A stretch of 64,000 nt of DNA from Akkermansiaceae bacterium (GTDB taxonomy: Bacteria > Verrucomicrobiota > Verrucomicrobiia > Verrucomicrobiales > Akkermansiaceae). This document shows, one piece after another, positions 41,485-45,042 of the stretch; the first letter of the stretch is position 1, and each line of letters begins with the position of its first letter. The notes under the pieces are model-generated. The model had not been told where the DNA came from, did no database searches, and was given only the letters and a program-made list of their open reading frames with translations. The DNA lies in NCBI GenBank assembly GCA_028822935.1, contig JAPKCM010000001.1, positions 124,001 to 188,000 of the forward strand, in the 5' to 3' direction. A program made the position numbers and the translations under genes.

Positions 41485-41518
41485 TTGACAAAACTTGTAT
41501 TTTCAGTAATTACTGTAA
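41485..41518 (+). promoter_or_regulatory. promoter with palindromic operator for the GbsR/MarR regulator
   Basis: TTGACA (41485-41490) is followed after 16 bases by TAATTA (41507-41512). The perfect palindrome CAGTAATTACTG (41504-41515) covers the -10 box. A near-copy lies before the next operon at 42083. Autorepression is the simplest reading. Transcription would start about three bases before the ATG. Confidence 0.65.
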
Positions 41519-41521
41519 GGG

Positions 41522-42043
41522 ATGAATGAGACGGCAATTAAGTTAGCTGAGATCCGCGCAGAGTTCGTGGCTCAATGGGGAGTGATGGGCACCCAATGGG
41601 GGATCAATCGCACCATGGCTCAAATTCACGCTTTCTTGATGATTGGGGCCGCGCCAATGAGTACGGATGAGGTTATGGAAGCTCTCGAGATTAGCAGGGG
41701 CAACGCGCACACCAATCTTAAGGACCTTGTTGGCTGGGGCTTGGTTCGCATTGTGACCAAAAAAGGAGAACGAAAGGAATTTTTTGAGGCCGAAAAAGGA
41801 GTTTGGGAGATGTTTCGTCGGATTACCGTTGAGCGCAAACGTCGGGAAATTGACCCCGCTCTGGCCGTTCTCCAGCGCTGTAAGGTCGAAAGTGAGGGAA
41901 TGGAAGGTAAGGATGCTCTCGCTTTTCACGAGCAAATGAAGGAGCTGGAAGAATTTGTCAGTTTCGCCTCCAAGATGGGAGATCGTGTTGCCGCGATGCA
42001 ACACGGAAAGGCGATGCAGCTCGCTTTCAAACTCTTCGGTTAG
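41522..42043 (+). CDS. GbsR/MarR-family transcriptional regulator
   Basis: 173 residues. The opening AEIRAEFVAQWGVMGTQWGI and the winged helix PMSTDEVMEALEISRGNAHT followed by NLKDLVGWGLVR fit GbsR-type regulators (MarR-like HTH). The C-terminal half is helical and probably dimerises. Such proteins in Bacillus sense choline or osmolytes; the ligand here is unknown. The two palindromes flanking this gene give it a plausible local regulon: itself and the operon from 42120. Confidence 0.88.
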   Translation: MNETAIKLAEIRAEFVAQWGVMGTQWGINRTMAQIHAFLMIGAAPMSTDEVMEALEISRGNAHTNLKDLVGWGLVRIVTKKGERKEFFEAEKGVWEMFRRITVERKRREIDPALAVLQRCKVESEGMEGKDALAFHEQMKELEEFVSFASKMGDRVAAMQHGKAMQLAFKLFG

Positions 42044-42082
42044 GATTCAGAAATTTTACTAACTCAGACATCTAGAAAGATC

Positions 42083-42112
42083 TTTCAGTAAATACTGAAA
42101 AAACAATATAAA
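42083..42112 (+). promoter_or_regulatory. second copy of the regulator palindrome, promoter of the DCC/acyltransferase operon
   Basis: TTTCAGTA-AA-TACTGAAA (42083-42100) is an 18-base inverted repeat differing from the one at 41501-41518 at three positions. TATAAA at 42107-42112 is a likely -10, so the operator would cover the -35 region. It lies 20 bases before the ATG at 42120. Confidence 0.65.
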
Positions 42113-42119
42113 AAAGAAT

Positions 42120-42602
42120 ATGAAGCTCCCACTCTACCTCAATTGGATCGAAGTTTACTACGATGGACGCTGCGGGATGTGCTGCACCTTTCATGAGTGG
42201 CTTAATCGGCAAAAACGGGCTTTCAGGGTTCGCTTCATTCCCTATCAGGCAGAGGAAGCGGCAGAGCAGTTCCCGGAAATCGCCGATCTTGATCCTGCTC
42301 GGGAAATGGTGGCCCGGACGAGTGAAGGGCAGATTATTCGAGGGGCAGAAGCCTGGGTCTGGTGCCTCTACAGCTGTGCGAACTATCGCAAAATGGCGCG
42401 AAGGTTGGCGAGTCCCGCCTTGTTGCCGATGGCGAAGAGAGCATGTCAGCTCCTTGCCGCCAATCGTCGTGGCTTGAGCCGGGTTTTTTTTCGTAGAAAA
42501 GATCACGAAGTGAGGGAGACCCTTCACGTGATGACCGGGCCGAGCTGCGACGGGGATTTTTGCGCTGTCGATCAGGACGAATGGCGCAAGGAGCTTCTCT
42601 GA
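42120..42602 (+). CDS. DCC-family thiol-disulfide oxidoreductase-like protein
   Basis: 160 residues. VYYDGRCGMCCTFHEWL holds the D-x2-C-x2-C motif (D15, C18, C21) of the DCC (YuxK) family, a thioredoxin-like fold. IRGAEAWVWC is another conserved block. The usual family length is about 130 residues; the Cys-containing tail (GPSCDGDFCAVD) is extra. It is the first gene after the second regulator palindrome. Confidence 0.88.
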   Translation: MKLPLYLNWIEVYYDGRCGMCCTFHEWLNRQKRAFRVRFIPYQAEEAAEQFPEIADLDPAREMVARTSEGQIIRGAEAWVWCLYSCANYRKMARRLASPALLPMAKRACQLLAANRRGLSRVFFRRKDHEVRETLHVMTGPSCDGDFCAVDQDEWRKELL

Positions 42603-42630: not shown

Positions 42631-43011
42631 ATGAATGAAACAACCATTACCTATAGCCTCTATCTCTTAATTGCCATTCCCGTGACCATTTGGGTGGCGA
42701 AAACCCTTCACCGAAATGGGCGAGTGTTCCTCGTCGATTGCTTCCATGGAAATGCTGAAATGGCCGATAGTGTGAACCACCTTCTTGTGGTGGGATTCTA
42801 CCTGATCAATATCGGCTTTGTGACTCTCTTTCTGAAGATAGAGAGCAAGGTTCAAGAAGTGACCGGGGTTTTCGAAGCACTGAGTGAAAAGCTAGGAGTT
42901 GTTCTCCTTGTCCTCGGAGGAATGCATTTCTTGAACCTCTACATCTTTAGCAAGCTTCGCCAGAATCCGAATGCGCAGCCGCCGATCATGCCAGTCAAAG
43001 GAACCTACTAA
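42631..43011 (+). CDS. small integral membrane protein
   Basis: 126 residues with three hydrophobic segments, near 5-25, 48-67 and 86-107 (LYLLIAIPVTIWVAK, HLLVVGFYLINIGFVTLFL, LGVVLLVLGGMHFLNLYIF). I do not recognise the family. It is 28 bases downstream of the DCC gene in the same direction and belongs to that operon. Confidence 0.8.
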   Translation: MNETTITYSLYLLIAIPVTIWVAKTLHRNGRVFLVDCFHGNAEMADSVNHLLVVGFYLINIGFVTLFLKIESKVQEVTGVFEALSEKLGVVLLVLGGMHFLNLYIFSKLRQNPNAQPPIMPVKGTY

Positions 43012-43322: not shown

Positions 43323-43703
43323 ATGATCTTACTCCGAATCGCCGGGCTGATGTGCCTCGGCTTGGTGGTGGCCAACCTCGTGGGAGTGAAGCGCCTGAAA
43401 TATGCGGTTAACTTGGAGACATCTGAGCCGATTGTGCGGCAGATCTTTTATGTGTATTGCGGCTATATCGTGATGCTGATTATGGGACTGACGGTTCTCT
43501 GTCTCGGCTGGCCGGAGCTTCTGCTCACCGATGGCATGGGACGTGTCGTCTGCTGGTTTTTCGGAATTTTCTGGGGAAGCTAGGTCGTTGTGCAGCTGAC
43601 TTATTACGATAAGGATCTTCGTATGAAAGAGCGGGGCTGGGATCTCTTTTTTCTGGGTGTTTTTGCGGCATTGGCCATCATTTTTATCAACGGCGCATTA
43701 TGA
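43323..43703 (+). pseudogene. membrane protein gene interrupted by an in-frame TAG
   Basis: The frame encodes 86 residues with two membrane helices, then TAG at 43581-43583. It continues in the same frame with VVVQLTYYDKDLRMKERGWD and LFFLGVFAALAIIFINGAL, a third helix, to TGA at 43701. That TGA overlaps the next ATG in the same ATGA style as the other operon junctions. The continuation is clearly protein-like, so the amber codon most likely interrupts a 126-residue protein. Alternatives are translational read-through, a sequencing error, or a genuinely shorter protein with a relic tail. A shift of frame is not needed. Confidence 0.75.
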
Positions 43704-44143
43704 AAGAACTCCTCGATTTAGGATTACAAGTGTCGGGCTGGTCGCTGGTGCTTCTATGTATTGGTAGCATCTGGATTCCCAAGGTGCTGGGCTGGCGCGA
43801 GAAGCTGGTGAGTCTCACGCCCTTGATGAAGGAACTCTGGTGGACCTACTCGCTCTACGTTTGGGGGAGTCACATTTTCTTCGCTGTGATGGCACTTGCG
43901 CATCGCGATTGGTTCCTGAGTGGGAGTCCGGTCGCGGCGAGCCTGGCTGGCTTTATCTGCCTCTGGTGGAGCGTGCGGCTTTACCTTCAATTCTTCGGCT
44001 TTGATTTCGATGAAGTGGAGGATGGGTTCTTGCATAAAGCGGCGAAGCACATCCTGACGCTGCTCTTCATCGGGCTCGTGTTCGTTTTCGGGATGACGGT
44101 GGCGTGGAATCTGGGCTTGCTGGGAAAGGGAGGAGCGCTGTGA
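43700..44143 (+). CDS. integral membrane protein of the acyltransferase operon
   Basis: 147 residues with four hydrophobic segments (VSGWSLVLLCIGSIWIPKVLG; LYVWGSHIFFAVMALAH; VAASLAGFICLWWSVRL; HILTLLFIGLVFVFGMTVAW). No known motif. It overlaps the upstream interrupted gene by four bases and the acyltransferase gene by four, so it is tightly coupled and may be a subunit of the same membrane system. Confidence 0.82.
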   Translation: MKELLDLGLQVSGWSLVLLCIGSIWIPKVLGWREKLVSLTPLMKELWWTYSLYVWGSHIFFAVMALAHRDWFLSGSPVAASLAGFICLWWSVRLYLQFFGFDFDEVEDGFLHKAAKHILTLLFIGLVFVFGMTVAWNLGLLGKGGAL

Positions 44144-45042
44144 TCGGAATCGTCTTTCTTCTCTTTGCCGGGCTTTTCGGCGGACGCTTGCTGGCGAAGC
44201 TCGCGCCGAAGGGGCATCGTCGCACCTTCGGCTGGCTCATGGTTTTCGCGTTGCTTGTCGCCGCTCATCTCAACCTCTTGGACGCGGATCCTATCGTGCG
44301 CATGGTGGGAATTTGTGCCGTGCTATTGGCCGCCATGAAGGGGCTCGTTTATGCCGAGTGGGCTGGGCCGAAACAGTTGACTTGGTCGCGTTATTTCATT
44401 TTCGGATTGCTGTGGTTTGGAATGGATCCGGGCACCTTCGCGAAGAAGAGAGCCGGGCTGAGCTACAAAGGTGATCTTGGATGGGGTCTCTTAATGCTGG
44501 TGGTGGGATTTACGATGGCCTGGGTGGTTTGGACGCTCGAGTATCGTGACATTATCCTGATGTTTGTGCCCATGAGTCTCGGGTTTCACTTTGGGGCTCT
44601 TCGGGTTTTGAAGGCGATCCATCGCTCCTTTGGCTTTCCCGTGCGGACTCTGTTTCCCAATCTCTTGAAAGCGCAAGGAATCGGAGACTTTTGGAGCAGA
44701 CGATGGAACGTCGGCTATTCGCAGATGATGCAAAGGGTCGTCGGGAGGCCGCTGGGAAATATCGTGGGGCGAGATGGGGGAGTGATGGCGGTGTTTCTCG
44801 TTTCGGGGCTTCTGCATGAAGTTGCGATCACGCTTCCGGTGATGGCGGGGTGGGGATGTCCCACGCTTTACTTTGTCTTCCATGGAGGACTTGCGGTGTG
44901 GGAACGGCGGACCGGTCGACAGCTGGGCAAGGTGCTGACGCTCATTTTGGTGGGTGCCCCGCTTGGTTTCTTGTTTCCTCAGGTCTTTCAAGTGGAAGTG
45001 ATTGAGCGATTTCTCGGAGTGATGAAATGGATCAATGGATAA
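44140..45042 (+). CDS. wax-synthase-like MBOAT membrane O-acyltransferase
   Basis: 300 residues from GTG 44140, whose GTGA overlaps the upstream stop; a frame extension to 44104 is less likely. Eight or so membrane helices. GIGDFWSRRWNVGYSQMM and SGLLHEVAITLP carry the FWxRRWN and the HE (probable catalytic His) blocks of plant-type wax synthases and related MBOAT enzymes. They transfer an acyl group from acyl-CoA to an alcohol. The product here (wax ester or other) is unknown. It is the last intact gene of the operon. Confidence 0.85.
   Translation: MIGIVFLLFAGLFGGRLLAKLAPKGHRRTFGWLMVFALLVAAHLNLLDADPIVRMVGICAVLLAAMKGLVYAEWAGPKQLTWSRYFIFGLLWFGMDPGTFAKKRAGLSYKGDLGWGLLMLVVGFTMAWVVWTLEYRDIILMFVPMSLGFHFGALRVLKAIHRSFGFPVRTLFPNLLKAQGIGDFWSRRWNVGYSQMMQRVVGRPLGNIVGRDGGVMAVFLVSGLLHEVAITLPVMAGWGCPTLYFVFHGGLAVWERRTGRQLGKVLTLILVGAPLGFLFPQVFQVEVIERFLGVMKWING

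Follow-up and report, generated by a model that had tools for sequence, protein, structure and literature searches.

Two closely similar palindromes stand on either side of a gene for a predicted MarR-type regulator in an Akkermansiaceae bacterium, and the question raised by this locus is which protein binds them and what is controlled from them. The window, the whole stretch of DNA that was analysed, comprises 64,000 nucleotides of contig JAPKCM010000001.1 (assembly GCA_028822935.1, positions 124,001 to 188,000). An earlier sequence-only reading had proposed that the palindromes are a shared operator of the regulator and define a local regulon. Comparison with relatives in the Verrucomicrobiales suggests, with a probability put at about 0.87, that both palindromes serve as operators for the product of the intervening gene, a GbsR-like MarR regulator, and that this protein is an autoregulated repressor with a regulon of membrane-lipid and isoprenoid genes.

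The two palindromes and their surroundings

The sites (Table 1) lie where they had first been placed and are identical at 16 of 18 positions, not at the 15 originally counted. Both are inverted repeats as described, site 2 being perfect but for its central 2 bp and site 1 having one broken pair. The chance expectation is 0.22 matches in the window at up to three mismatches, which agrees with the claim that two such flanking sites are unlikely to be fortuitous. A genome scan, the check proposed at the time, found TTTCAGTAWWTACTGWAA at up to two mismatches in only four places in the 4.59-Mb genome (site 1, site 2, C57:44952 and C57:82001, the last a weak match) and its reversed pattern in none; elsewhere in the genome the motif is rare. 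With one mismatch allowed, the looser motif TTTCASWNNNNWSTGAAA occurs in 15 places in the same genome against 8 for its reversed control, and the places beyond three A/T-centred sites are mostly chance matches.

Promoter positions had been claimed for both sites, and here the outcome was divided. For site 1 a place over the -10 region is plausible: its centre lies 16-18 nt from TTGACA, a TTGAC is conserved ~15 nt upstream of the site in close orthologues, and the distance from the start of the site to the start codon is a constant 20-26 nt across orthologues. The conserved spacing and the short distance to the start codon point to an operator over the -10 region and a very short leader. Site 2, which is 39 nt past the regulator stop codon and 20 nt ahead of the next gene, is less certain, as no conserved -35 was seen ahead of it across the orthologues.

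Table 1. Predicted sites and genes around the regulator (positions in the window)
Feature	Position	Strand	Basis or remark
TTGACA, probable -35 box (regulator promoter)	41485..41490	+	Sequence; TTGAC conserved in close orthologues
Operator site 1 (predicted), TTTCAGTAATTACTGTAA	41501..41518	+	Over presumed -10 region, 21 nt upstream of ATG
GbsR-like MarR_2 regulator, 173 aa, recognition helix SRGNAHTNL	41522..42043	+	PF12802, CudC model, PDB 1ku9
Operator site 2 (predicted), TTTCAGTAAATACTGAAA	42083..42100	+	Between regulator and following genes
DCC1-like (DUF393) thiol-disulfide oxidoreductase, first downstream gene	42120..42602	+	Pfam PF04134, E 6.8e-13; same order in relatives
Small membrane protein, 126 aa, conserved neighbour	42631..43011	+	No Pfam family
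Small membrane protein, frame broken by in-frame TAG	43323..43583	+	Some homologues lack this stop
Small membrane protein, 147 aa	43700..44143	+	Downstream of site 2
MBOAT_2 (wax-synthase-like) O-acyltransferase	44140..45042	+	Pfam PF13813, E 2e-9

Conservation of the sites and of the recognition helix

Most relatives have an orthologue of the regulator. The named genomes that were scanned yielded 59 Verrucomicrobiales loci, including Roseibacillus, Akkermansiaceae, Rubritalea and Prosthecobacter, and the motif counted was TTTCAG-N6-CTGAAA with at most one mismatch unless stated. It was found in 51 of 58 orthologous regulator promoters (58/58 at up to two mismatches) and in 42 of 57 regions past the stop codon, with only 2 occurrences in 3341 control windows; site 2 was missing in some Roseibacillus relatives. 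Single copies in distant genomes that had G/C-rich centres or lay inside genes (e.g. L133, L137, L139) were set aside as chance. Since both places have retained the palindrome throughout the order, autoregulation is very probable, and so is the regulator's control of the membrane and lipid genes that follow.

The conservation falls on letters and not on pairings, which bears on whether the palindromes could be RNA hairpins (a terminator, attenuator or mRNA stabiliser) instead of DNA operators. Site 2, directly past a stop codon, does fold slightly better than its shuffles (z -2.1), but the folding of site 1 is no better than that of shuffles (z 0.6), nothing resembling a terminator was found from the regulator to the DCC gene, where A-rich and not T-rich sequence follows, and the polyprenyl-diphosphate synthase sites considered below keep TTTCAG opposite GTGAAA, a broken stem pair, in 18 species. 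With site 1 folding at shuffle level and no terminator-like site, the hairpin reading was rejected as hardly credible.

A sister subfamily of regulators, 37-45% identical to that of the window, has the recognition helix ARSNVS-SL in place of SRGNAHTNL. Most of its members have TTTCTGT-N4-ACAGAAA 13-17 nt upstream of the start codon and similar sites occur past the stop codon too, the same two positions around the gene thus carrying TTTCTG-N6-CAGAAA as against TTTCAG-N6-CTGAAA. All 10 ARSN-type promoters having a site carry T at position 5 of the left half-site, and 66 of 68 of the SRGN type carry A or G there (Fisher 9e-12, for sequences that are not independent). That the operator follows the recognition helix connects the motif with this very regulator. 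The two-site arrangement is accordingly old, and the helix and its operator have changed in step.

These comparisons also bear on the suggestion that a different, unlinked regulator uses the palindromes as its operators, their position around this gene having another cause. Two of the genes treated below, for a sigma factor and a polyprenyl synthase, are indeed unlinked candidate targets, as for a global regulator. However, the motif is tied to the regulator gene in ~60 species and very rare elsewhere, its altered form accompanies the sister regulators at the same two positions, and a genus whose nearest counterpart of the regulator is a distant homologue (g3) is almost devoid of copies, the SRGN-type motif occurring in 2 of 23 genomes against 1 of 23 in the control. 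An unlinked regulator is therefore regarded as quite improbable, and a shared operator of the resident regulator, as originally proposed, is strongly supported by the conservation of both positions, the rarity of the motif elsewhere and its change with the helix.

Candidate targets and mode of action

Relatives add a TIGR01777-type epimerase (DUF1731) and a fatty-acid desaturase to the genes that follow the regulator. Where the DCC gene has been lost from loci of the same genus, site 2 is imperfect or absent in 5 of 5, compared with 5 of 15 where that gene is retained (p 0.016). Literature searches on DUF393, TIGR01777 and MarR regulons, with most subscription papers outside their scope, turned up nothing relevant. 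Among the small membrane proteins, one reading (43323-43703) is split by an in-frame TAG at 43581-43583; as relatives have homologues lacking this stop, the interruption is taken as a broken gene copy or an assembly error.

The regulon appears to reach beyond the locus, and the word "local" in the original proposal was too narrow. A third good copy of the motif, near-perfect, is found at G000:C57:44952-44969 (L005:6953), between a DUF58-type gene and a divergent gene for a sigma-70 factor of 285 aa, 95 bp ahead of the latter. This sigma factor has several paralogues per genome in the genus, and paralogous promoters in five other genomes have a copy at up to two mismatches; it is a likely further target in the bacterium's own genome. 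In 18 of 25 same-genus genomes the promoter of a polyprenyl-diphosphate synthase gene has the site at a fixed position with no more than one mismatch, and in the own genome the left half-site has decayed. The synthase is likely to be a target in most same-genus relatives but not here; loss of the site is weakly associated with absence of the regulator (p 0.07). A reading in terms of light or carotenoids, prompted by the polyprenyl matches, was dropped because the synthase resembles long-chain quinone-type enzymes. To judge from gene content, membrane lipid and isoprenoid metabolism would be the common theme of the regulon.

In two same-genus genomes only (L080:6568 and L084:7602), perfect copies of the motif stand ahead of a two-gene set whose second protein is a membrane protein with PEMT and DCC1-like matches; the own genome has no such gene with a perfect site.

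In the proposed mechanism a homodimer of the regulator would bind one operator, with one half-site per subunit. Bound at site 1 it would block RNA polymerase at the -10 region, giving negative autoregulation, and bound at site 2 it would block transcription into the DCC1-like, membrane and MBOAT genes. The block at site 2 might be a roadblock to transcripts reading through from the regulator promoter, or the protein might cover a second weak promoter; with no terminator-like site before the DCC gene, a roadblock, as reported for GbsR, is a reasonable guess, and so is a weak promoter. A ligand, probably tied to the state of membrane lipid, isoprenoids or redox, would release the regulator. Both the repressor sign and release by a ligand are taken from what is usual for MarR proteins.

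Some MarR proteins are activators, and action of the regulator as an activator, or as activator and repressor together, would suit the want of a recognisable strong -35 at site 2. Site 1, by contrast, overlaps the presumed core promoter downstream of the conserved TTGAC, a repressor position like those of CrtR (PMC5401885) and OpcR (PMC7396694), and activation is considered unlikely.

A broader proposal, which can be advanced only tentatively and at somewhat less than even odds, is that of an order-wide autoregulated GbsR-type switch forming a new functional class. It would sense the membrane-lipid or isoprenoid state and control the module of DCC1-like, epimerase, desaturase and MBOAT genes together with prenyl synthesis for quinone chains and a sigma factor, with helix and operator having been switched together between sister subfamilies (SRGN with TTTCAG, ARSN with TTTCTG). 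For a branch of the GbsR family with no known function, the analysis provides a predicted operator and names a few likely targets, and the one-letter operator switch paired with a switch of the recognition helix is a clean case of its kind. It also ties the poorly understood DCC1-like, small membrane and MBOAT_2 proteins to prenyl synthesis and a sigma factor.

The regulator among known systems

The regulator matches the Pfam winged-helix family MarR_2 (PF12802; E 1.2e-6; score 29 bits, cut-off 27). Among solved structures the nearest to it in sequence is MJ223 (PDB 1ku9; E 1.4e-11, over residues 19-143). A palindromic operator of 16-20 bp near the own promoter, as expected in this branch, is present as a predicted site. 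The winged helix and the MJ223-like length and fold, as judged from sequence, place the regulator in the MarR superfamily, in its GbsR-like branch. With 47.1 bits it is far under the 218-bit cut-off of the NCBIfam CudC model (NF047500), and by this test it is GbsR-like but not a choline GbsR. Aromatic residues stand after its winged helix; in the CudC/GbsR choline regulators an aromatic cage holds the ligand. No genes for glycine-betaine synthesis or Opu transport were found among the six annotated genes of the window and the annotated conserved neighbours in relatives (DCC1-like, MBOAT_2, epimerase/DUF1731 and fatty-acid desaturase). The description "GbsR/MarR-type" holds at the level of the superfamily, and nothing links the regulator to osmoprotection. 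A second, distant GbsR-like regulator, 28% identical, is encoded at G000:C145:11083-11451 (L008) beside genes for a NusG-like protein and a sugar-nucleotide epimerase, with a separate inverted repeat, GTTCATTTTAAATTGAAC, upstream.

With GbsR, OpcR, OpuAR and CydE (PMC6207618, PMC7396694) the present system shares a PF12802-type winged helix related to MJ223, which served as template for GbsR models (PMC6207618), a regulator gene beside its targets and A/T-rich inverted-repeat operators. For GbsR, a roadblock action downstream of the start site has been reported (PMC7396694), which resembles the action proposed at site 2. The present regulator differs in its CudC score, in its 18-bp TTTCAG-N6-CTGAAA operator and in its targets, the neighbouring genes including none for osmoprotectants or cytochrome bd. 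MJ223 itself is archaeal and has no known operator or targets.

A useful analogue, with no kinship claimed, is CrtR of Corynebacterium glutamicum, a MarR-type repressor responsive to isoprenoid pyrophosphates (PMC5401885). CrtR is likewise a pfam12802 protein which, from an operator covering the promoter, keeps down both its own expression and that of isoprenoid genes. It targets an isoprenyl-diphosphate synthase gene, as the predicted site suggests for the relatives here. It differs in being actinobacterial, in a recognition site reported to contain TTAA and in its crt gene targets. That the present regulator might sense isoprenoids as CrtR does is pointed to solely by the polyprenyl-diphosphate synthase target in relatives. 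A literature search with the operator letters, most subscription papers being outside its scope, found no 18-bp site among the papers listed. Set beside these systems, the phenomenon would be that of an ordinary autoregulated repressor, a switch of the normal kind; what is new is the previously undescribed target set and the paired change of recognition helix and operator.
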